Positions 15,849-36,470 of a stretch of 38,125 nt of DNA are shown here, one piece after another (position 1 is the first letter of the stretch; the number at the start of each line of letters is the position of its first letter). The translations under genes were made by a program, and so were the position numbers. The notes beneath the pieces were generated by a model. The model saw only the letters and a list, made by a program, of their open reading frames with translations. It was not told the DNA's origin and ran no database searches. The stretch comes from Verrucomicrobia subdivision 6 bacterium. GTDB lineage: Bacteria > Verrucomicrobiota > Verrucomicrobiia > Methylacidiphilales > Verrucolacustridaceae. Where the stretch lies: the NCBI GenBank assembly GCA_945873585.1, contig CAMCDO010000002.1, positions 1 to 38,125 of the forward strand, given 5' to 3'.

Positions 15849-16024
15849 ACTCTTTTTTGGATTTTACCCTGAAGGATGCGATGGCGTTTGATCGGTCAAA
15901 AACACAGCTTGTGAATCGATTCCGAACAACCCCAAAACGACACTTCGACGACTATTCACAGGTTCTTTTCTGACTCTCGGATAGACACTTGAAGCTTCCC
16001 GCTGACTTTTCATTCTTCCTCCTT

Positions 16025-16798
16025 ATGTGCCGAAGGGGTGTGTGGATCGCTTGGCTAACGCTTTTTTCAGCGGTCTCTTGGGGTGCGGACACTGGCGGAG
16101 TCGATACCGCTCAAAATGACGCGGCCAATGCCCATCCTTTCGTAACCCCGCCTCCTTTGTCGGATCCCAATGCGGAACTGGTGGACCGCCCCCTCCCTGG
16201 AACAAAATCCGAGGCTGACGGATCTTTTGCCGGTGAAAATGGCGGGGCTTTGACCCCCTACTACGTTCGCACCGGGATCGGCTTGAGTTTCATTACCAAT
16301 GTGGATTACCCGGATTTCGGCATTACTGGCAGCGTCGACATGGCTCCGGGTTTTGCGACGGGGGTGATGTTGGGTACACAGTTCCACGACAACATCGCCT
16401 TCGAAATCGAGGGCGGCCTGCTTTACAATACGGTTTATTCCAATCAGGCGGGAAATATCACAGCGACCAATATGGCGCAGATCACCAATGTTCAGCTGTT
16501 TCAGGTTCCGATGATGGGGAATTTCATTTTCCGTACCGATCCCCTAGGAGCCACCCGGATTCGCCTGGTCGCAGGAGGTGGCATGGGAGGCATTTTTCGC
16601 CAAGTCTTTGTCACTGGAACTCCGAACAACTACACCGAAAGCCAGACCTTGGCTGCGTATCAAGGGTTTGGCGGAATTCAGATCAATCCTGGAGAGCCCG
16701 ATCTGATGGTGGATGTTCAGTTTCGCTATTTGAATTCGATCACAGGACAGTCGGTTCCCTCCATGTCGATCATGGGGACAGTGACGATTCGCTTTTGA
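16025..16798 (+). CDS. Outer-membrane beta-barrel protein, paralogue A
   Basis: A 257-residue exported protein. The frame opens with TTG at 15989, but ATG at 16025 gives a standard signal peptide (MCRRGVWIAWLTLFSAVSWG, cut before ADT), so I prefer it; no ribosome site is evident for either. After a proline-rich periplasmic linker (VDRPLPGTK) come alternating strands (YYVRTGIGLSFITNVDYPDF, FEIEGGLLYNTVYS, LFQVPMMGNFIFRTD, VAGGGMGGIFRQVF) ending with phenylalanine (MGTVTIRF), typical of small 8-10 strand barrels. It resembles the genes at 16807 and 25504. It is divergent from the TonB receptor, with a 176-base gap. Function is unknown. Confidence 0.7.
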   Translation: MCRRGVWIAWLTLFSAVSWGADTGGVDTAQNDAANAHPFVTPPPLSDPNAELVDRPLPGTKSEADGSFAGENGGALTPYYVRTGIGLSFITNVDYPDFGITGSVDMAPGFATGVMLGTQFHDNIAFEIEGGLLYNTVYSNQAGNITATNMAQITNVQLFQVPMMGNFIFRTDPLGATRIRLVAGGGMGGIFRQVFVTGTPNNYTESQTLAAYQGFGGIQINPGEPDLMVDVQFRYLNSITGQSVPSMSIMGTVTIRF

Positions 16799-16806
16799 GC
16801 CAAGGT

Positions 16807-17643
16807 GTGAATGTGAGAAGGTATGCGAGGGGATTCAGGGGTTCAGGAGTTAAGGGGTTAAGGTTTTTAAAGTCGTGCTTACTGATCATGATGTTTTTCT
16901 GTGGATCGAATCTGTTTGCCCAGAGATTGTCCCTGACCGACGTGCAGGCCCAGCCGGTCACGGGTCCAGGGCCAGGCCTGCGGATTGCACTCGGTGGCAC
17001 GGTCAATTCAGACATGTCGGTCGCCCAACGGGACACCCGAGATTATCCTCAGGCGAATATCAGCCCTCTCTTTTCGAATCAGGTGCAGTTCAATGGAACA
17101 GTCAGTTATGAGTCGATCGGTTTCAACCCAGGTTTCCGTTTCGATTTTGCCCCAGGATACCGCCTGAACGAGTGGATCAATTTCGAGTTCGAAACTGGTT
17201 GCATCTACAACACAGTCGAGTCGTACACCATCACGGGAAATGGGACTTTCACAGGGGTTGGTGGCAATCCGAATCTCAATGGAACGATGAAGATGGATGC
17301 GGAAGGATATCTCTTGCAGGTGCCACTGATGGTGAACGTCGAGTTTTCTTATCCGATCGGGGATGGATGGAGACCATTTGTGGGTGCAGGCGGAGGGGGC
17401 ATGTTCCAAAAACTCACTGTCAGCACCATCTCGGGAACGATCAACTATCAGGGGGACTTTAATCAGTCGAACTTCATGGGAGCGTGGGAGGCCTTCCTTG
17501 GGTGCGGATACCAGGTGGCACCAGGTTTCGATGTGTCGATCGCGTATCGTGTCGATGGGGTGCTCAGCCCAGAATTTGGGGGCTACACCATGCAGAATTT
17601 TTACACCCAAGCGGCCGAATTTGAGATGAATTGGAGGTTTTGA
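16807..17643 (+). CDS. Outer-membrane beta-barrel protein, paralogue B
   Basis: About 278 residues, homologous to paralogue A: FNPGFRFDFAPGYRLNEW, CIYNTVESYTITG, YLLQVPLMVNVEFSYP, PFVGAGGGGMFQK, and a C-terminal aromatic residue (FEMNWRF). The start is unclear: TTG 16795, GTG 16807 and GTG 16813 are all in frame; I use 16807. The coding N-terminus (RGFRGSGVKGLR) is written by a short tandem repeat (16829-16863) that recurs just after the stop (17648-17691). The export segment is LKSCLLIMMFFCGSNLFA. The stop of paralogue A is 8 bases upstream, so the pair is probably co-transcribed. Confidence 0.7.
   Translation: MNVRRYARGFRGSGVKGLRFLKSCLLIMMFFCGSNLFAQRLSLTDVQAQPVTGPGPGLRIALGGTVNSDMSVAQRDTRDYPQANISPLFSNQVQFNGTVSYESIGFNPGFRFDFAPGYRLNEWINFEFETGCIYNTVESYTITGNGTFTGVGGNPNLNGTMKMDAEGYLLQVPLMVNVEFSYPIGDGWRPFVGAGGGGMFQKLTVSTISGTINYQGDFNQSNFMGAWEAFLGCGYQVAPGFDVSIAYRVDGVLSPEFGGYTMQNFYTQAAEFEMNWRF
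16829..16863 (+). repeat. GGGGTTCA-type tandem repeat inside the 5' coding end
   Basis: About four units of a degenerate 8-base repeat (GGGGATTCA, GGGGTTCA, GGAGTTAA, GGGGTTAA). The same type occurs at 17648-17691, directly after the stop of the same gene, in the same orientation. Here it is read in frame as RGFRGSGVKGLR. Confidence 0.75.
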
Positions 17644-17647
17644 GGAA

Positions 17648-17691
17648 GGGGATTCAGGGGTTCAGGGGTTCAGGGGTTAAGGGATTCAGGG
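17648..17691 (+). repeat. GGGGTTCA-type tandem repeat after the gene
   Basis: Five to six units of an 8-base repeat (GGGATTCA, GGGGTTCA twice, GGGGTTAA, GGGATTCA) starting 4 bases after the stop at 17643. It is in direct orientation to the run at 16829-16863, so the gene lies between two direct repeats. Confidence 0.75.
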
Positions 17692-17731
17692 AACACGTTG
17701 CTCACGCAAAGGTCGCCAACCCTACTACGTC

Positions 17732-17856
17732 CCGCATGTGCGGTACTTCGAAGGGGGCCCAGGGCGGGCGGGTGAGAATGTAAGAACGTGGGAAGGTGCG
17801 AAGGTTGTTTTGCAGCTGGAAGCTTAGGTAGCGGCGGCATCTCCGAGGCCGCCTCG
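17732..17856. repeat. Repeat island with 35-base hairpin repeat, copy 2
   Basis: The 364-base gap 17644-18007 has no convincing gene. It holds a palindrome CCGCA-TG-TGCGG (17732-17743), a degenerate run of the GTGAGAATG / GTGGGAAGG / GTGCGAAGG type (17772-17804), and the 35-base repeat at 17822-17856, which is the exact inverted copy of 1888-1922. TTGTCACAC at 17980-17988, 20 bases before the next ATG, matches the motif of region 9080-9457. Confidence 0.65.
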
Positions 17857-18007
17857 CTGGGTGCTCAAAGCTGGAGAATCAGCGCAGGCTACCTGGGTTT
17901 TAGGATTATGAAGAGACAGACTCCCCCGCCCAGAACTGTTACTAAAACTTATTCGTACCTAGTTGGCATTAGCACTTAATTGTCACACTACATTTCTCGC
18001 TTAGCCA

Positions 18008-18997
18008 ATGGCTCATTTCATTCTTAGGGCTATGGTTTTGCGTATTTTTTTATTGGGTCTTATTTTCTTGGTGGCTTGTCCTATTCAAGCCCAAGAGAAC
18101 TCAGGCCGGCTGACCGTTGCCCCTTCCAGCGTAACTAACGCACCGTCGGCCACACCAACCCAGCCAGCTGCCACAAAAGCCCCAGAACCAACATCGAATA
18201 TGGTGGATGCTCCACTTCCAGAAATTGCCAACCAACCCAATGTCATCACCCCATCCCAGACCTCAGGAACCGATGGTCCTAAGGGTCCGCGTGATGGCCA
18301 CTGGTACGCATCGGTATTTGGCGGGGCCATGGTTGAGCAGTTTCAAGTCAATGCAACTTCAACTGCGATTGGCCAACAACCTCTGGATCAAGGGCCGAGT
18401 TCAAAGTTGGGGTCCTACGCAGGTTTCAAGGTGGGGTACGATTTCGCAGTGCGCGACGTCCAACTAGCATTCGGGGGTCCTACTCCAATGCGTACATCCA
18501 TGGAGTTGGAAGGAAGCTATTTAGGAACCTACGAGAAAATTCCTCTTTATAACGTCAGCACAGGTAGTCCGACAGTTGGTTATGAAACCTACAGTCTGAA
18601 CGCCTATAATGTCATGTTAAATGGCTTGGTTAAATTCGAAGACCTTCCTGTCACCCCTTACTTTGGCGGTGGGGTCGGCGTTGTTTTTATGTCCGCCTTA
18701 AATCACAAAATGGACGTAAATGGCATCGTCAACGGGACTCCGACAACTTACTCCACTACTTCCTCTACAGGAAACAACACTAGCCTAGCCCTTCAGGCCA
18801 TAGTTGGACTGGAAAAAGAAATCTATGACAACCTCACTCTCTTTGTGGAATATAAATTTCTTGCCTGGCTCGATGTGAGATTTGCCTACGGCAGCGAACC
18901 AACCCTTAGCACCCCTCCGACGCAAGGCGGATCAAACTCACAGAACGATTTTACCGCCCAGCAACTTCTATCAGCTGGTGTGAAATATAGCTTTTAA
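18008..18997 (+). CDS. Outer-membrane beta-barrel protein at head of Ton operon
   Basis: 329 residues from ATG 18008; a second ATG at 18032 gives a tidier signal peptide (MVLRIFLLGLIFLVACPIQA) and may be the real start. LVAC at the end of the hydrophobic part could also be read as a lipobox. A threonine/proline-rich linker (TNAPSATPTQPAATKAPEP) contains VDAPLPE, like VDRPLPG in paralogue A. Beta-strands follow (WYASVFGGAMVEQFQV, FKVGYDFAVR, PYFGGGVGVVFMSA, LTLFVEYKFLAWLDV), ending in phenylalanine (GVKYSF). It is 5 bases from the DUF3450-like gene, so it is probably the first gene of the energising operon. It may be an outer-membrane partner of the Ton system, which is inference. Confidence 0.7.
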   Translation: MAHFILRAMVLRIFLLGLIFLVACPIQAQENSGRLTVAPSSVTNAPSATPTQPAATKAPEPTSNMVDAPLPEIANQPNVITPSQTSGTDGPKGPRDGHWYASVFGGAMVEQFQVNATSTAIGQQPLDQGPSSKLGSYAGFKVGYDFAVRDVQLAFGGPTPMRTSMELEGSYLGTYEKIPLYNVSTGSPTVGYETYSLNAYNVMLNGLVKFEDLPVTPYFGGGVGVVFMSALNHKMDVNGIVNGTPTTYSTTSSTGNNTSLALQAIVGLEKEIYDNLTLFVEYKFLAWLDVRFAYGSEPTLSTPPTQGGSNSQNDFTAQQLLSAGVKYSF

Positions 18998-27308: not shown

Positions 27309-27770
27309 TCAGATTTTCTTCGGTTCCACTCCCTCATCTCCCGCCAAAATTAGTGCCACCACCACCAATCCCAAATGAATCCCAATATCCGCCACCGTCG
27401 ATTGCCCCCCAATTAACATCTGCCCAAATGCCAAGGAAATATAAAGGAATCCCGCTAAAACCAATGGCACCCGATTCCTCCCTGCCACCAAGATCCCCGC
27501 CCCCAACAATATCTCGGCATAGGGCAAGCCACCGACAAACAACTTCACCGACCAAATCGGCGGGAAAGGACGTTCCAAAAACGGTTGCATCAACGCCGGC
27601 ATGACCTGCGCATAAAACTGAGAAAAACTTAATCCTTCCGGCCCATTGAATTTTCCCAGTCCCGCTGTTAAAAACCGCAGCCCCAGAAATAACTGCAAAA
27701 GAAGAAATGCCCAGTCCCGACTTCCCCACCGAATCCAAAACGGCCGCGCGTCTAACGGATCCATCCTCAT
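27309..27770 (-). CDS. DoxX-family membrane protein
   Basis: 153 residues with four membrane helices: WAFLLLQLFLGLRFLTAGLGK, IWSVKLFVGGLPYAEILLGAG, RVPLVLAGFLYISLAFGQML and IGIHLGLVVVALILAG. This is the length and helix pattern of the DoxX family, in which some members are subunits of quinol oxidases and others are of unknown role. The N-terminal motif LRFLTAGLGKF and the GxxPYAEILLG motif support it. The ATG at 27768-27770 overlaps the lysC stop by 4 bases (ATGA), so it is translated with lysC, although no functional link is obvious. A second ATG two codons later is possible. Confidence 0.8.
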   Translation of the reverse strand: MRMDPLDARPFWIRWGSRDWAFLLLQLFLGLRFLTAGLGKFNGPEGLSFSQFYAQVMPALMQPFLERPFPPIWSVKLFVGGLPYAEILLGAGILVAGRNRVPLVLAGFLYISLAFGQMLIGGQSTVADIGIHLGLVVVALILAGDEGVEPKKI

Positions 27771-29008
27771 ACCCTTTCCCCCAATCGAAACTCCCGATGC
27801 GCCGCACGCACCGCCTTCGATCCCGCCTCTTCATCCACCACCACCGTAATCTTGATCTCACTCGTGCTGATCATTTGGATATTCACGCGCGCCGCCGCCA
27901 ACGCCCGAAAAAGCTGAGCCGCCACCCCACTGTGGCTGCGCATCCCAATCCCCACCACCGACAACTTCGCCACCCCCTCCTTAAATAAAATCTGCCGCGC
28001 CCCGCCTGAGCGAACAAAAGGCTCAAGAAATTTCCGCACCTTCGCTAACTCCTCCCGTGGCAAGGTAAAGGTAATATCCGTTTGCGCTTTCCCTTGGCGC
28101 CCCCCCGTCGGTAGCGAAATATTCTGCACAATCATGTCCACACTGATCCCCGCCTTGGCAATGCCCGTAAAAAGTTTTGCCGCCACCCCAGGTCGATCCG
28201 CAACCCCCACCAGCGTCACCTTCGCCTGGCTTTTTTCTAAACTCACTCCACGCACCACTACCCGCTCCATCGATTTTGCTTCTTCTTTAACCATAGTTCC
28301 TCTTGCACGATTGAAACTCGACCGGACCTCAAAGACCACCCCGAACTTCTTCGCAAACTCCACCGATCGCGCCTGCATCACTTTTGCCCCTGTACTCGCC
28401 AACTCCAGCATTTCGTCATAAGAAATCTCCGCAATCTTGCGCGCCCTCGGCTCGGTTCTTGGATCCGCTGTGTACACCCCATCCACATCCGTATAGATCT
28501 CACACCGCTTCGCTTTCAGCACCGCCGCCAACGCAATCGCCGTCAAATCCGATCCTCCCCGCCCCAGCGTGGTTACCTGCCCCTCCATCGTCTGGCCCTG
28601 AAATCCAGCCACAATCACCACTCGTCCCAAACGAAGATGCGCTTCCACCGCTTTCGGGCTCACATTGGCAATCCGTGCTTTCATATGGGTACCGTCCGTA
28701 ACAATCCCCGCTTGCGCTCCCGTCATCGCCACCGCCGCAATTCCACGGGCCTGCAAAGCAATCGCCAAAAGCGCCGTTGTCGTTTGCTCCCCTGTAGCCA
28801 TCAAAAGATCCATCTCCCGCTCGCTCGGCTCTGCATGCAACCCCCTAGCCATCTTTAAAAGCCCATCCGTCACTCCACTCATCGCCGAAACCACCACCAC
28901 AAGCCGATTCCCCTTTCGCCGCGACTCCGCCACTCGGTCCGCCACCTTCTGAATTCTTTCCAAATTGGCCACCGAGGTTCCCCCATACTTTTGCACTAGA
29001 AATTCCAT
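27767..29008 (-). CDS. lysC: Aspartate kinase
   Basis: 413 residues from ATG 29008. The upstream open frame to 29080 lacks family residues, while ATG 29008 gives the standard start MEFLVQKYGGTS. It phosphorylates aspartate, the first step to lysine, threonine, methionine and diaminopimelate. The catalytic domain has KYGGTS (7-12), GRGGSD (149-154) and TDVDGVYTADPR (173-184). Two ACT domains follow (about 264-340 and 347-410), the usual sites of feedback inhibition by lysine and/or threonine. The length matches monofunctional aspartokinases. It is divergent from acnA across a 114-base gap and followed by a doxX-like gene with a 4-base overlap. Confidence 0.97.
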   Translation of the reverse strand: MEFLVQKYGGTSVANLERIQKVADRVAESRRKGNRLVVVVSAMSGVTDGLLKMARGLHAEPSEREMDLLMATGEQTTTALLAIALQARGIAAVAMTGAQAGIVTDGTHMKARIANVSPKAVEAHLRLGRVVIVAGFQGQTMEGQVTTLGRGGSDLTAIALAAVLKAKRCEIYTDVDGVYTADPRTEPRARKIAEISYDEMLELASTGAKVMQARSVEFAKKFGVVFEVRSSFNRARGTMVKEEAKSMERVVVRGVSLEKSQAKVTLVGVADRPGVAAKLFTGIAKAGISVDMIVQNISLPTGGRQGKAQTDITFTLPREELAKVRKFLEPFVRSGGARQILFKEGVAKLSVVGIGMRSHSGVAAQLFRALAAARVNIQMISTSEIKITVVVDEEAGSKAVRAAHREFRLGERV

Positions 29009-29122
29009 ATTTTTACTTTGCCACCCGATTCCCCCATACCAAATCCAAAAGTTCACCTTCCCCAACTCCTCGTTCGCCATCCTAGACTTTCACGCCCTCC
29101 TTTTTTCATCTAGGGTTTAGCC

Positions 29123-31918
29123 ATGTCCGACCTGCGTTCCCAGACCCTCGCCACTTTCTCCTCTGGCTCCACCTCCTACCATTTTCAAAGCCTCTCCAAG
29201 CTCGGCCAACAACTAACCCTCGACCTCTCCCGCCTTCCCATTTCCCTCCGCATCGTCCTCGAATCCGTCCTTCGCCACTGCGACGGATTTTCTGCTCGCC
29301 CCCGCGATGTCGAGAATCTTGCCCGCTGGAATGCTAAGAAACCCGCCTCAGAAGAAATTCCCTTCACCGTCGCCCGAATCGTTCTACAAGACTTCACTGG
29401 CGTACCCCTTCTCGTTGATCTCGCCGCTATGCGCGATGCCGTCGCTCGGCTCAAAAAAGATCCGCAACTCATTGAACCGCTCGTCCCCGTCGATCTCGTC
29501 GTCGATCACTCCGTCCAAGTCGACGTCAACGGCACCAAGCAAGCCTTCATGCTCAATATGCAGTACGAGTTTAAACGTAACCGCGAACGCTACGAATTTC
29601 TTAAGTGGGGCCAACAAGCTTTCCAGACCTTTGGCGTTGTCCCCCCAGGCATCGGCATCGTTCACCAAGTTAACCTCGAGTACCTTGCCCGCGGCGTTTT
29701 TACCAAGAAACAAAGCGACGGATCCCTTCTTGCTTATCCCGACTCTCTCGTCGGTACCGATTCTCACACCACCATGATCAACGGCCTCGGCATCGTTGGC
29801 TGGGGCGTCGGCGGAATCGAAGCCGAGGCGGGAATGCTCGGTCAACCCCTTACCTTCCTCACCCCTGAAGTTGTCGGCGTCTATCTCACTGGCGAACTCC
29901 CCCCCGCCGCCACCGCCACCGACCTTGCCCTCACCCTCACCCAGATTCTTCGCCAGCACAAAGTCGTTGGTAAGTTTGTCGAATTCTATGGCCCCGGCGC
30001 CGCTAAACTCACCCTCCCCGATCGCGCCACCATTGCTAATATGGCACCCGAGTATGGAGCCACCATGGGCTACTTCCCTGTCGATCAAGAAACTCTCGCC
30101 TACCTCCAGGGTACCGGACGTCCTCAAGAACTCGTCCAACTCGTCGAAGACTACTATCGCGCCCAAAATCTTTTCGGCATCCAAACCAAAAAGGACGCCA
30201 TCGACTTCTCTTCCCTTGTCGAACTAGATCTCACCACCATTCGCCCAAGCGTCGCAGGCCCCAAACGCCCCCAAGACCGCATCGAAATTCCTGCCCTCCA
30301 GTCCACCTTCCTCGGTCTCCTAGCCAAGCCCATAGCTGAAGGCGGCTACGGCAAAGATCGCCACCAGTGTGCCCAATCGGCCCAGATATCTCTCTCCATC
30401 GACGAACAGGAAATGATCTCCGATCGACCCACTCCAGATCCTCTTCCAAAAGTTTCACAATCGAAAAACCAAACTCCAGTTTCAGCCACGCTCCATAACG
30501 GATCGGTCGTCATCGCCGCCATAACCTCCTGCACCAATACCTCCAACCCCTCCGTCATGCTCGCCGCAGGCCTCCTAGCCAAAAAAGCGGTCCAACGCGG
30601 CCTGACCGTCCCCGACACCATCAAAGCTTCTCTAGCCCCAGGCTCCCGTGTTGTCTCCGACTACCTCGACGCCACAGGCCTTCAACCTTACCTCGATCAA
30701 CTCGGTTTCAATCTCGTAGGCTATGGATGCACCACCTGTATCGGCAACTCAGGCCCACTTCCCGCTCCAATTGAGAAAGCAGTCCTCGACCACGATCTCA
30801 TCACCGCCAGCGTGCTTTCCGGGAATCGCAACTTTGAGGCCCGCGTGCACTCTTCTGTCAAAGCCAACTTTCTTATGTCTCCGCCTCTCGTCGTCGCCTT
30901 CGCCCTCGCTGGTCGGATCGATATCGATCTCTCAAAAGACCCGCTCGGCCATGGCCACGACGGAAAACCGGTCTACCTCCGCGATCTCTGGCCCACCCGT
31001 GAGGAAATCGCGCAGGCTATGAAATCCGCACTCAAGCCCGAAGTCTTTCGCCGCCTCTATCGCGATTTCTCTGAGCAAAATCCGGCCTGGAACGAAATTC
31101 CCAGCACCCCCGGCCAAACCTACGCTTGGGACCGTAATAGCACCTACATTCAAGAACCCCCTTTCTTTGCTAACTTCACCCTCCAACCGATTCCCGTTCC
31201 CGCCGTCACCCAAGCCCGCTGCTTAGGTATTTTCGGCGACTCCGTAACCACCGATCACATTTCCCCCGCAGGCAACATCAAGAAAACCTCCCCTGCAGGG
31301 TCCTACCTCATCGCACACTCCGTTCCTGTGGAAGACTTCAACAGCTACGGCGCCCGTCGAGGAAACGATCAAGTCATGACCCGCGGAACTTTCGCTAACG
31401 TCCGCATTAAGAATCTTATGATCCCAGGAGTCGAAGGGGGCACCACCCTCGACCTGCTCAACCCTCAACGCCCGCAAATCTCCATTTACGAAGCCGCTCA
31501 GAAATACCAAAATGCTAAAGTTCCCTTGATGGTTCTCGCTGGGAAAGAGTACGGCACGGGCAGTTCTCGCGATTGGGCCGCCAAGGGCACCCGCCTCTTA
31601 GGCGTCCGCGCAGTCATCGCCGAAAGCTTCGAGCGCATCCACCGCTCCAATCTAGTCGGAATGGGCGTTCTTCCTTGTACCTTCCCCGAGGGCGTTACCG
31701 CTCAAACCCTGAAACTCAACGGCACGGAAACTTTTTCGATCGAAGGACTAAGCCAACCACCCAAACCCCAGGAAAAACTTACCCTACGAATTCAACGGGA
31801 AAGCGGCTCCACCGAAACAACCCCAATTCTCAGCCGACTCGATACCCCCATCGAAGTCGAATACTACCTTCACGGCGGCATTCTTCCCTTCGTCCTCCGC
31901 CAACTTCTTTCCCGCTAG
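29123..31918 (+). CDS. acnA: Aconitate hydratase A
   Basis: 931 residues. It converts citrate to isocitrate in the TCA cycle in the cytoplasm. The three 4Fe-4S ligands are Cys470 ([13 protein letters not shown]), Cys536 and Cys539 ([12 protein letters not shown]), with the 66- and 3-residue spacings of the AcnA/IRP class. Other family blocks are [36 protein letters not shown] and the swivel-domain [20 protein letters not shown]. It is about 40 residues longer than E. coli AcnA, largely from a linker near 410-450 ([18 protein letters not shown]). The coding strand is strongly C-rich. It converges on tal with a 3-base gap. Confidence 0.98.
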
Positions 31919-31921
31919 CCG

Positions 31922-32881
31922 CTAGATTTTTGCGAGGATTTTCTTCTCAAGCTTTACGATATCCGCAGAAAACAAACGAATCCCTTCCGCCAACTTCTCC
32001 GTCGCCATCGCATCCTCGTTCAGCAAGAAGCGGAAACTCTTCTCATCCAACGGCAGCTTCTCTATCGAATCCTTCTTGGCCTCCGCCACATCCAACTTCT
32101 GTACCACCGCCACACTCGAACTCTGTAACTCACCCAGCAAATTTGGACTGATTGTCAACAGATCACACCCCGCCAACTCGAGAATCTGCCCCATATTCCG
32201 AAAGCTCGCCCCCATCACCTGCGTGGCATATCCGAATTTCTTGTAATACGCATAAATCTGCTTCACCGATTTTACCCCAGGATCTTCCACCCCCACATAC
32301 TCCTTCCCCGTGCTTTTCTTATACCAATCGTAAATCCGCCCCACAAAAGGAGAAATCAACCGTGCACCCGCCTCCGCACAGGCCACCGCTTGCGGAAGCG
32401 AAAACATCAAAGTCAAATTACATTGGATCCCCTCCTTCTGAACAATCTTCGCTGCCTGCGCTCCCTCCCAAGTCGCCGCAATCTTGATCAATATCCTCTC
32501 CCGATCAATCCCCGCCGCCCGATAAATCTCAATCAAGTGCCTCGCCTTCTCCACCGTGGCCTGTACATCAAACGAAAGCCGAGCATCCACCTCCGTCGAA
32601 ACTCGTCCCGGCACAATTTTCAAAATCTCCCGCCCAAACAGAGTCAGTAGTTGATCAATAATCGCACGCGCACGCACCTCTTTCGATCCAACTCCACCCT
32701 TTCCCTCCGCCACCGCCTTCTCTAGCAATCCTTGGTACGCAGGCATCTCCACCGCCTTCTCGATCAAAGTCGGATTCGTCGTTGCATCCTGCGGAGCATA
32801 CGCCTTCATCGAGGCGAAATCCCCCGTGTCCGCCACCACCGTGGTGAACTTCTTTAACTGCTCTAAAGCGTTTGTGCTCAT
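31922..32881 (-). CDS. tal: Transaldolase
   Basis: 319 residues, the length of classical TalB-type transaldolases. It moves a dihydroxyacetone unit between sugar phosphates in the non-oxidative pentose phosphate pathway. The Schiff-base lysine is Lys133 ([11 protein letters not shown]), Asp18 lies in VVADTGD, and DATTNPTL (32-39) and [11 protein letters not shown] (95-105) are the other active-site blocks. AGGAG, formed by the last codons of glmM, lies 10 bases before the ATG, and the gap to glmM is 6 bases, so it is co-transcribed and probably coupled. Classical type, not the small fructose-6-phosphate aldolase type. Confidence 0.97.
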
Positions 32882-32887
32882 CGTCTC

Positions 32888-34255
32888 TTATTCTCCTAAA
32901 TGTTCCTGTAAAAGAGGCTGCAACCTCTCTTCAACTTTACGAATCCTATCGATTTCGTCCGCTTCGACAAGCAGTCGTATCAGATTTTCTGTTCCTGAAT
33001 ACCGCAGAAGAATCCTCCCCTTCTGCCCTAGAAATTTCTCCATCTCCGCCACCGCACCAGCCAAAACCGGAATCGTCTCCCACGGCACCTTCTCCCTCAC
33101 CCTCACATAACTCAACTTCTGTGGATACTTTTTCATCCCTTTTCGCATCTGTGCTAGCCGCAATTTTTTCCTTTGCACCAAATCCAAAATCTTCAAGGCC
33201 GAGAGCAGTCCATCCCCCGCAGGCGATATATCGTGAAAAAGCAGATGCCCCGACTGCTCTCCCCCCAAACAAAAACCACCCGACCGCATTGCCTTCGCCA
33301 CATACCGATCTCCCACCGGCGTCCTGAGCACTTTCCCGCCCCGTGACTCGACCGCTTCGTCTAATCCCATATTACTCATCACCGTCACCACCACCGTCTT
33401 ACCTGATAACTTCCCTCTTTCCAGTGCATCCAAAGCCGCCATCGCAATCACCTCATCGCCGTCCACCCTCTCCCCCTCCTCATCGACCAAAACCATTCGA
33501 TCCGCATCCCCATCATGAGCCAATCCAATCCAACCCGGTTTTCTTTGAATCACCTCTATCAGCTTCTCGGGATGCTCAGATCCACAACCTGCGTTGATAT
33601 TTTTCCCATCAGGCTTTTCCGCAATTACCTCCACCTCCGCCCCCAACCCGCGTAATACAGTCGGAGTCGTAAACCAAGCCGCTCCATTCGCCGCATCCAC
33701 CACAATCTTTAATCCCGCTAACGAAAATTCCGCAGGAAACCCTTTTCTCAACCGATTCCCATACCCCTCCAACGCCCATCGTGCACAGGAGAAATCCATC
33801 TTCGGCGTTTTCTCCGTGATCAAGGGTGGATGCTTCTCATCCAGACACGCTTCAATCGCTTCCTCCTGCTCATCCGTCAACTTTGCCCCATCCTCCCCAC
33901 AAAACTTTAGCCCGTTATCTCCCACCGGATTATGGGAGGCACTCAAAATAGCCCCGCCACAAGCTCCCTTCTCCTCCACTAACATCCCAACCGCCCCACT
34001 CGGAATCACCCCCAATACCTCTGGAACTAAACCCGCCGCGCGTAACCCAGAAACCAGCGCCGCCTCCAGTATCGGACCCGAGCCGCGCGTATCTCGCGCT
34101 ATTAAAATTTTTCCACCAGCCGACTTTTCGGAAAAGTACTTGCCCGCAGCCCATCCCATCGCCGCCACAAATTCAGGTGTCATTGGCACTTGCCCCACTT
34201 TCCCACGAATCCCATCCGTCCCAAACCACTTCCGCACCCCTCCCCCCTCTCCCAT
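32888..34255 (-). CDS. glmM: Phosphoglucosamine mutase
   Basis: 455 residues from ATG 34255, whose first base is the last base of the cdaA stop (TAATG). It converts glucosamine-6-phosphate to glucosamine-1-phosphate for peptidoglycan and outer-membrane sugar synthesis. The N-terminus is KWFGTDGIRG; the phosphoserine is Ser107 in SASHNP; the metal-binding loop is DGDADR (248-253); and the sugar-phosphate loop is RYSGTENLIR near the C-terminus. The order cdaA-glmM is conserved in many bacteria, where the cyclase and the mutase bind each other and tune c-di-AMP against cell-wall precursor supply. The extra N-terminal codons to 34306 overlap cdaA and are not used. Confidence 0.97.
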   Translation of the reverse strand: MGEGGGVRKWFGTDGIRGKVGQVPMTPEFVAAMGWAAGKYFSEKSAGGKILIARDTRGSGPILEAALVSGLRAAGLVPEVLGVIPSGAVGMLVEEKGACGGAILSASHNPVGDNGLKFCGEDGAKLTDEQEEAIEACLDEKHPPLITEKTPKMDFSCARWALEGYGNRLRKGFPAEFSLAGLKIVVDAANGAAWFTTPTVLRGLGAEVEVIAEKPDGKNINAGCGSEHPEKLIEVIQRKPGWIGLAHDGDADRMVLVDEEGERVDGDEVIAMAALDALERGKLSGKTVVVTVMSNMGLDEAVESRGGKVLRTPVGDRYVAKAMRSGGFCLGGEQSGHLLFHDISPAGDGLLSALKILDLVQRKKLRLAQMRKGMKKYPQKLSYVRVREKVPWETIPVLAGAVAEMEKFLGQKGRILLRYSGTENLIRLLVEADEIDRIRKVEERLQPLLQEHLGE

Positions 34256-35196
34256 TAACGCATCCCCGCCCGCATCCCCGCCACAATCAACCCCAACCCG
34301 CCCCAAGCAATCACCGCCAACCCCAAGCAGATCGCCGCCCGTACCAACCTCCTTATAAAGGCCCTAGGCCCTGCCGAGGGACGTAAAAATCCTCGCGCTA
34401 ACCCACCTACCCAAGAAACCCCCTCGCCACCTGCCACCAGAATCTCTGTCAGCTTTTGCCGTAACGCATCAATCTCCAAGGGCCTCTCCATCGTCCCACG
34501 ACGACACAAAGTAATCTGACCCGACTCCTCCGAAAGAACCAAAATCACCGCGTCACTCTCCTCGCTCAAACCCAACGCCGCCCGATGCCGCAACCCCAAC
34601 ACCCGACTCATCCCCTGCTGGCTTACCGGCAAAATACAACCCGCCGCCACCAGTCGGTCCCCTCTCAAAATCACCGCTCCATCGTGCAACGGAGTCTGGT
34701 TGAAAAATACCGTCGCCAACAGCTCCTCCGAAACGGTGCCATGCACAGGCACGCCCGAATCCATTACCCCCTGCGCAAGATCCGACTGCTCGAAAACAAT
34801 CAACGCCCCATATTTCCGTTCTCGAAGTGCCTCGATCGCTTTGATCACTTCTTCAATGACGAAAGACTGACGCTCCGCATGAATCGAAAATCCGCCCGCC
34901 CGTCCGATCTCCGCCAAAGCCCGCCGAATCTCAGGCTGAAACAAAATCAAAAAGGCCAGCACCAAAACCGAAACAAAGGCCTGCAGAAGAAAACTCAGCA
35001 CCCGTAACTCCAAAAACCTCGACGCCACCAGCGCGACAACAAAGACCAGCAAAAATCCGCTCAAGACCTTAGCCCCCTGCGTCCGCCTCAGAAGCTTGTA
35101 CCCGTAATAAAAAACCGCCGTCAGAATCAGAATCTCCAACGCGCCTTGCCAGCGCAAGTCACGGTACGGTTCCAGCCAGCTAACGGGCACGATCAT
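34255..35196 (-). CDS. cdaA: Membrane diadenylate cyclase
   Basis: 313 residues from ATG 35196; the open frame further upstream lies inside the phosphatase gene and is a shadow. It makes c-di-AMP from two ATP. Three N-terminal helices (about 20-35, 42-60 and 66-87: ILILTAVFYYGYKLL, VLSGFLLVFVVALVAS, LLQAFVSVLVLAFLILF) precede the DAC domain with DGA (172-174, in PLHDGAVIL) and RHR (203-205, in LGLRHRAALG), the two hallmark motifs. The protein is about 40 residues longer than a typical CdaA because of a C-terminal membrane helix (AAICLGLAVIAWGGLGLIVAG, about 287-307). The usual partner gene cdaR is missing between cdaA and glmM. Confidence 0.95.
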   Translation of the reverse strand: MIVPVSWLEPYRDLRWQGALEILILTAVFYYGYKLLRRTQGAKVLSGFLLVFVVALVASRFLELRVLSFLLQAFVSVLVLAFLILFQPEIRRALAEIGRAGGFSIHAERQSFVIEEVIKAIEALRERKYGALIVFEQSDLAQGVMDSGVPVHGTVSEELLATVFFNQTPLHDGAVILRGDRLVAAGCILPVSQQGMSRVLGLRHRAALGLSEESDAVILVLSEESGQITLCRRGTMERPLEIDALRQKLTEILVAGGEGVSWVGGLARGFLRPSAGPRAFIRRLVRAAICLGLAVIAWGGLGLIVAGMRAGMR

Positions 35197-35240
35197 AGAG
35201 TGAGAAGAACAGAAACGGCACTCGCTGTCGATGCGTAGAA

Positions 35241-36470
35241 TTACCGAGCTGCCCTTTTCTTCAACTCCAATCGATCCAGCTCTCGTCCCATTCGGCTCAA
35301 CGTCACCACCTCCACCGTCTCTTTTTTTAATTTGATCACGTTGATGTAGTTTTCCTGGGCATACGCTTTGCGCAACGGGATCGACTCGGCGCACCTCGCC
35401 TCCCTCGGTTCCACCCCGATCGACCCATTCCCCAGAACCATAACTTTCCGCCCCCCCTTTCCCTCACTTTCCACTCTCTGCATATCATGATCGTGGTGAT
35501 TGAAAACTGCCGTAGCGTCCGACTTCTCGATCAGCGGAATCCACTCACTTCTTGCATATCCACTCATCGGCTGCGCGTTCCAGGTTCGAGCCGACGGATA
35601 ACACGCGATATGCCATGAAACGAAAACCCACGGTACGCTCTTTCTCGCTGCCAGGTTTTTCTCCAACCACTTCGTCTGCCGCTCCATCGGGGTGATATGC
35701 CCAGTATCTAAAAGAAGAAGGGAAAGATAATTTCCGAAATCCATCCCGATAGGCTCATCTCTCTGGTAGAGACCGCCAAATAAAGCAAAAAAGAAGGGGG
35801 CCTTCTTTTTCATATCCTCAAAGGTTGCCCCCTCCTGCCAATACCCTCCTTGAACCTCATGATTCCCGATTCCGGGCACCAACGGGATTAACTTTCCATC
35901 CGTCCCTTGGGCGACTCGGTGCCACATCTCCCAAAACCGAATCTCCCTGGCAACATCCTTTCCGTCGCTATACGAAATATCCCCTCCAAGACTAAAGAAG
36001 AGGGGATTTTTCTGGCAGGCCAAAGTCAACATCTCCTCCGCAGCTTGGGTGGAGTCGGAATCTCCCCCCTCCGCAAAGATCAGCTCCTCTCCCATGTCCA
36101 AAGGGGCGGTTCGAAACCTCTGCTCCGGCGAATCCCCTACCTGGAATACATACTCTTTTCCTGCTTCCAATTCCTTCCAACGGACTCGTGATAAACTCCA
36201 CCTCGGCATTCCCCTCTTCTCGGGATCGGGAAAGTCGGTGCTCGTGCTCCTCGCCACTTGCCACGTTGGTTCTCCTAGCTTTTTCCAGCGCACCTCCTCC
36301 CCTTTACCCTTTTCAGGACGATCCCCCAACCCAGGACCCCGCAACCACTGGGCCGTCATCGTCGTACACGGATCACCCTCCCACGTAAGCAAGAGCGTCT
36401 TTGGGACCTCCTCCGCCTCGCCTCTTAAACAAAGGCAAACAACCAAGATGAGTAGAAACCAAGATTTCAT
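35241..36470 (-). CDS. Purple-acid-phosphatase-like metallophosphoesterase
   Basis: 409 residues, exported (signal peptide MKSWFLLILVVCLCLRGEA). An N-terminal Fn3-like domain (about 22-120, LLLTWEGDPCTTMTAQW, LEAGKEYVFQVGD) precedes a calcineurin-like catalytic domain with the metal ligands in order: GDSD (136-139), GDISYSD (163-169), GNHE (202-205), WH (286-287) and HHDHD (325-329). This layout is that of purple acid phosphatases, which release phosphate from esters outside the cytoplasm. The first motif is GD-S-D rather than GDxG, and GHxH is replaced by HHDHD, so substrate choice is uncertain. It is first in the operon with cdaA (44-base gap), glmM and tal. Confidence 0.85.
   Translation of the reverse strand: MKSWFLLILVVCLCLRGEAEEVPKTLLLTWEGDPCTTMTAQWLRGPGLGDRPEKGKGEEVRWKKLGEPTWQVARSTSTDFPDPEKRGMPRWSLSRVRWKELEAGKEYVFQVGDSPEQRFRTAPLDMGEELIFAEGGDSDSTQAAEEMLTLACQKNPLFFSLGGDISYSDGKDVAREIRFWEMWHRVAQGTDGKLIPLVPGIGNHEVQGGYWQEGATFEDMKKKAPFFFALFGGLYQRDEPIGMDFGNYLSLLLLDTGHITPMERQTKWLEKNLAARKSVPWVFVSWHIACYPSARTWNAQPMSGYARSEWIPLIEKSDATAVFNHHDHDMQRVESEGKGGRKVMVLGNGSIGVEPREARCAESIPLRKAYAQENYINVIKLKKETVEVVTLSRMGRELDRLELKKRAAR

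Follow-up and report, generated by a model that had tools for sequence, protein, structure and literature searches.

Why does the gene for an outer-membrane protein lie between two runs of the same 8-nt repeat, and does the run at its 5' end become part of the protein? The question arises in a window of 38,125 nucleotides, which is contig C2 of a draft genome (G000; 1.41 Mb, 80% complete) from a Verrucomicrobia subdivision 6 bacterium. The orthologues of this gene all come from MAGs, several of them labelled Verrucomicrobia subdivision 6, and their isolate names suggest that they are from lakes. Variation in the arrays and in gene content was compared between species, with one genome per species.

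The barrel gene and its two arrays

The gene (16813..17643, plus strand, within an open reading frame at 16795-17643) would encode a repeat-derived N-terminal extension, an export helix (about 16879-16905), and an outer-membrane beta-barrel. The protein matches the Pfam family OMP_b-brl (PF13505) across residues 98-282, with an E value of 8.8e-7 and a score of 29.7 bits (cut-off 28.7); the AlphaFold2 model, made with 8 sequences, has a mean pLDDT of 34, too low to speak to the fold. Five congeners have orthologues of 92-95% identity, and three have orthologues of 71-76%. Upstream is a paralogous barrel-like gene (15989..16798, plus strand) that is 33% identical to the barrel gene over 16148-16696 and adjoins it in G001, G006, G007, G008, G015, G016, and G017. 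A large gene further left reads like a TonB-dependent receptor-like protein, judging by its sequence. To the right are a gene at 18008-18997 and genes for DUF3450, ExbB, ExbD, TonB, and TPR proteins.

The first-pass annotation of this DNA had reported same-strand repeat runs at both ends of the gene. These are real, and Tandem Repeats Finder places them within 1-2 bases of the earlier coordinates. The 5' array (16828..16863, plus strand) has 4.4 units of AGGGRTTM with a period of 8 and lies in frame. The 3' array (17647..17691, plus strand) has 5.5 units with the same period, is untranslated, and starts 3-4 bases beyond the TGA of the barrel gene (17641-17643). The units are few and imperfect (they match at about 85% within the arrays), and the two arrays are 94% identical across 36 nt and have an odd 9-nt first unit in common. 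A two-unit pattern with at most one mismatch has seven matches in the window, every one inside these arrays; when the window was shuffled 30 times with its dinucleotides preserved, there were none. Further dispersed intergenic repeats follow at 17699..17890 (no strand assigned): CTCACGCAAAGG..., GGTAGCGGCGGCATCTCCGAGGCCGCC..., and GTGAGAAG-like octamers, with a Tandem Repeats Finder call at 17784-17805. Strings from this region recur in G016 and at other loci of the genome; one example is L010, where they lie beside another octamer array. We found no Rfam families in 16700-18020.

A dispersed octamer family in one genus

Allowing up to one mismatch, AGGGRTTMAGGGRTTMAGG has 56 matches in the draft genome, as compared to zero for the reversed pattern. 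These matches make up about 25 arrays, some of them clustered on contigs C17 and C18. The arrays are mostly intergenic and often lie directly 3' of a stop codon. Of 21 congeners, 19 carry the family, and it is absent from all 41 further genomes of the order (Verrucomicrobia subdivision 6 lake MAGs). So the two arrays in the window are members of a genus-specific dispersed (AGGGRTTM)n family, rather than a device that encloses this gene, as had been suggested. We searched the literature for the AGGGRTTM octamer and found no description of it. A phage origin was considered and set aside, as there was no match among phage records.

The arrays also follow a rule of orientation. With the barrel and IVP loci set aside, 23 of 24 contigs have arrays whose G-rich strand agrees with the sign of the GC skew around them. 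The barrel-locus arrays of G000, G006, and G007 run against this rule. This could be taken to mean that the segment was imported, but we give the idea little weight because the local skew at barrel loci is weak and the region from 16.5 to 18 kb is itself positive. As a separate observation, the genes at the right of the window (27767-36470) have a third-position GC skew, on the plus strand, of -0.4 to -0.75, and those at the left (2096-26307) one of -0.47 to +0.35, as if the left part had been acquired or inverted and its skew were still short of equilibrium.

The genus contains other dispersed intergenic repeats, including the palindrome GGCCCTGCTTCGCTCAGTCTCGGCCAGCTCGCTGAGCTTCGCAGGG, CCCGCGGGTGCGGGACACGCTGACGCGTGG, GATTTCGAAATCC..., and GTGAGAAG octamers (L001-L014, and L077-L084 for the orthologue spacers). 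Some of these are also open in frame ahead of barrel orthologues. Octamers encode C-terminal tails as well, both in a dCMP deaminase (L203 2175-2831, minus strand; ...EPGVKGLRG) and in a protein on C11 that has no Pfam match (L189 1655-2971, minus strand; ...GIKGLRGQGGE); these similar tails speak for translation of the 5' array of the barrel gene.

One subtype of 23S_rRNA_IVP (PF05635) genes has octamer arrays on both sides, inverted and always at the same distance (L203, that is G000:C106, 1767-2199; L202, that is G000:C63, 1852-2275; and L122, L123, L125, and L136). The homology between two unrelated IVP loci starts and stops at the arrays. The IVP gene with its inverted arrays resembles a small mobile element that is bounded by octamer arrays and lies outside rRNA; the Coxiella IVS, too, has inverted repeats at its ends, as well as tandem heptamers (PMC4990558). 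The gap between the convergent pheS and dCMP deaminase genes (L254-L272) is found in many states across the genus: it is empty in G006, G008, G007, and G010; it has arrays and an IVP gene in G000, G003, and G015, and an IVP gene of opposite orientation in G005; and it has remnants in G016 and G018. In G001 it contains the 20-bp palindrome GGAAGGGATTAATCCCTTCC, which is one unit plus its complement, and nearly the same in G014. This palindrome may be the seed of octamer arrays.

Is the 5' array translated?

Because 8 and 3 are coprime, all forward frames of an array yield one and the same cycle of 8 codons. Units with TTCA give RGSGVQGF, which is free of stops, while units with TTAA give RG*GVKGL, with one stop per 24 nt, so only TTCA-rich or suitably phased arrays can persist in a gene. 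TTCA units are 4 of the 7 scored at the barrel locus versus 1 of 60 elsewhere in the genome (Fisher p about 2e-4). Since the untranslated 3' array shows the same enrichment in TTCA units, a local subfamily or conversion would explain this bias as well as coding selection does.

The first-pass annotation stated that the first run codes for RGFRGSGVKGLR ahead of the export helix and that it blurs the start codon, and we agree on both counts. The in-frame start codons are TTG 16795, GTG 16807, and GTG 16813, and the next is ATG 16888/16891, which is already inside the helix. The likely start is GTG 16813 (alternatively GTG 16807), with a ribosome-binding site of the AAGGTG type (16802..16815 for both together, plus strand), between the upstream stop and the repeats. 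At the equivalent place, G015, G016, and G017 have AAGGTG and then a start codon, and G018 has AAGATG, with different repeats behind. From GTG 16813, the window's frame reads VRRYARGFRGSGVKGLRFLKSCLLIMMFFCGSNLFAQ.

In each of the seven orthologues whose upstream spacer is short, an open frame leads through octamers and other dispersed repeats to the export helix. Summed across the seven, the stretch between the upstream stop codon and the helix has 0 stops in the coding frame (about 350 codons) versus 11 and 33 in the other frames. Shuffled sequences are also open in 13-37% of cases per genome, and no genome taken singly gives a significant result. Given this and the shared ancestry of the genomes, the combined support from open frames is moderate.

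The repeats would also supply charge. The extensions have 5-8 K/R and 0-3 D/E, and in five of the seven orthologues, all of the basic residues ahead of the helix derive from the repeat stretch. The repeats themselves vary. G001 has an octamer relic and a palindrome, which read as ALLRSVSASSLSFAGFTDS; G017 and G018 have the G001 palindrome plus KGLRALK or KGLRALR; G015 has this palindrome alone; and G006 and G008 have octamers plus the GATTTCGAAATCC repeat (KEYSAQKNPKGSRGSGGMGLGKLGFRNPNFQIRISESAFS in G008). An octamer-derived motif was kept while the surrounding DNA changed (VKGLRFLK, VKRLRFFK, LKGLRALK, and FKGLRALR). G016 and G007 are a different case: a long, stop-containing insert interrupts the old frame there, and translation must begin at another start.

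From the open frames in seven orthologues and the repeat-derived basic residues in five, we conclude that the 5' array most likely encodes the extended n-region of a signal peptide. The array would thus very probably alter the N-terminus, as had been proposed. Alternatively, the array could be an untranslated leader, with the start at ATG 16888/16891 or at a nearby TTG or GTG, and both arrays could be neutral intergenic repeats that flank the gene by chance. The octamer family is almost wholly intergenic elsewhere, most orthologues do have start codons near the helix, and, as the shuffles indicate, chance alone leaves the frame of a single genome open fairly often. We nevertheless think that a leader is unlikely. 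Starts after the array would leave signal peptides of about 12-16 residues that, in close relatives, have no positive charge (MMFFCGSNLFAQ, MLILVFFCGSNLFAQ, and MVLIIFFCGSDLFAQ), and ATG 16888 is not preceded by a ribosome-binding site. The lack of stops across seven genomes also speaks against a leader. Finally, in G006 and G008 we found no usable start beyond the repeats, as the only candidate is a TTG within the hydrophobic run, so in these two genomes the translation of repeat DNA seems close to obligatory.

Variation between species

The number of repeats is not constant: the 5' arrays of G000 and G001 are exactly one 8-nt unit apart (GATTCAGGGGTTCAGGAGTTAAGGGGTTAAGG versus GATTCAGGGGTCAAGAGGTTAAGG), and other relatives have arrays that are eroded, replaced, or lost. 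This comparison between species supports the earlier suggestion that the number of units can change the N-terminus. The 3' array is found at the equivalent place in G001, G006, G007, G008, and G017 and is absent in G015, G016, and G018.

The gene is not fixed either. G003 and G004 keep the receptor-like gene (81-82%) and the paralogue (70-79%), and G003 keeps the right-hand genes, but at the syntenic locus of these two genomes we found neither the barrel gene nor any array, not even a single-array scar. In the pheS tree, G003 and G004 group with G006 and G008 (support 100/100), and since these sisters carry the barrel gene, loss in G003 and G004 is the simplest reading of the sequences; transfer would be the alternative.

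It had been proposed that direct repeats at both ends let the gene be lost, amplified, or exchanged, that is, that the barrel gene is a cassette whose ends recombine. The 94% match between the arrays, the arrays on both sides of the gene in G006 and G008 as well, the barrel arrays that oppose the orientation rule, and the absence of the gene from a syntenic site when its sisters have it would all fit. But deletion by recombination between direct repeats would leave one array behind, and the empty sites have none. About 36 imperfect base pairs is also short for efficient homologous recombination. As for amplification between the arrays, we saw none, and the upstream homologue is an old paralogue. 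The left neighbour is unchanged wherever the gene is found. Exchange might be suspected because the barrel gene is 94% alike while its left neighbours are 63-82% alike, but the core genes to the right are about as similar as the barrel (84-98%). What sets the left neighbours apart is simply their fast evolution, and there is no sign of recent exchange. Overall, we consider a recombining cassette to be quite improbable.

It is more improbable still that the array is a phase-variation switch in which 8-nt slippage changes the in-frame start and turns the barrel protein on or off: 8 nt is no whole number of codons, the array is preceded by several start codons that do not share a frame, and G000 and G001 do differ by one unit, but the units are few and imperfect, unlike the long pure repeats of contingency loci.

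A proposed repeat-derived N-terminus

Starting from what was observed (the repeat family, the open frames, the one-unit difference, and the presence or absence of the gene), we propose that a dispersed octamer array is translated and forms a repeat-derived n-region of the barrel protein. We think that this is probably correct, although translation, the role in the signal peptide, and selection on the frame are our interpretation of sequences. In this scenario, (AGGGRTTM)n settles chiefly between genes and at gene ends, and the 5' copy, sitting between a start codon and the export helix, would be translated. The octamers, and the other dispersed repeats in relatives, would then make up the n-region of a Sec signal peptide, one that is long, basic, and tolerant of sequence change, and the extension is presumably cleaved off with the signal peptide (SNLFAQ in most). 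Gain or loss of a unit or repeat would shift the frame and would be tolerated where another upstream start codon restores it. With the frame restored by alternative starts, the N-terminus would turn over fast while the barrel stays more than 90% identical in close relatives.

More speculatively, the basic 8-residue cycle of the octamer (VKGLRG...) might have been recruited repeatedly into protein ends, and the N-termini of secreted proteins might be replaced by successive selfish repeat families under selection for frame and charge, with the octamers supplying the charge of the n-region here. We hold this broader idea only tentatively, and it may well be wrong.

Related systems and implications

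The nearest precedent is the Rickettsia palindromic elements, which are described as palindromes of about 100-150 bp integrated within many genes (Ogata et al. 2000, 2002; PMC10969869). By the same description, these elements are, like the octamers, dispersed, in frame in protein genes, and apparently translated, with function kept (PMC10969869). The octamers are dispersed outside of genes too (about 25 arrays, most of them intergenic) and are in frame in a protein gene, but we found no palindrome of a defined family in the barrel arrays, only 8-nt tandem units. The octamers also differ in being mostly intergenic and in being translated, as we read them, at protein ends (an N-terminal n-region and C-terminal tails). 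Coxiella QMITE1 and QMITE2 are MITEs that measure 150-400 bp and are flanked by direct repeats, and in places they too supply in-frame terminal residues, for example the C-terminal 33 amino acids of EnhC in one strain (PMC5896051). The octamer arrays at the barrel gene lack such a MITE structure.

In cyanobacteria, short tandemly repeated repetitive (STRR) sequences are short tandem units that are dispersed between genes in one lineage. The octamers resemble them in this respect; the unit sequence and the host differ. The signal extensions of autotransporters are conserved protein sequence, unlike the extension of the barrel protein, which is encoded by repeat DNA that differs between species. 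The likeness is that in both cases the ordinary Sec signal of an outer-membrane protein is preceded by an N-terminal stretch of unusual length (PMC2805444).

The value of this finding is the probable repeat-derived N-terminus of the barrel protein. One gene in many related species offers a natural series of N-termini built from selfish intergenic repeats. The setting is an n-region, where the sequence is nearly free but the charge is constrained. There is also a caution here for gene callers, regarding the assignment of starts in repeat-rich genomes. And it is an old question how non-coding repeats turn into coding sequence: this locus makes it directly testable.
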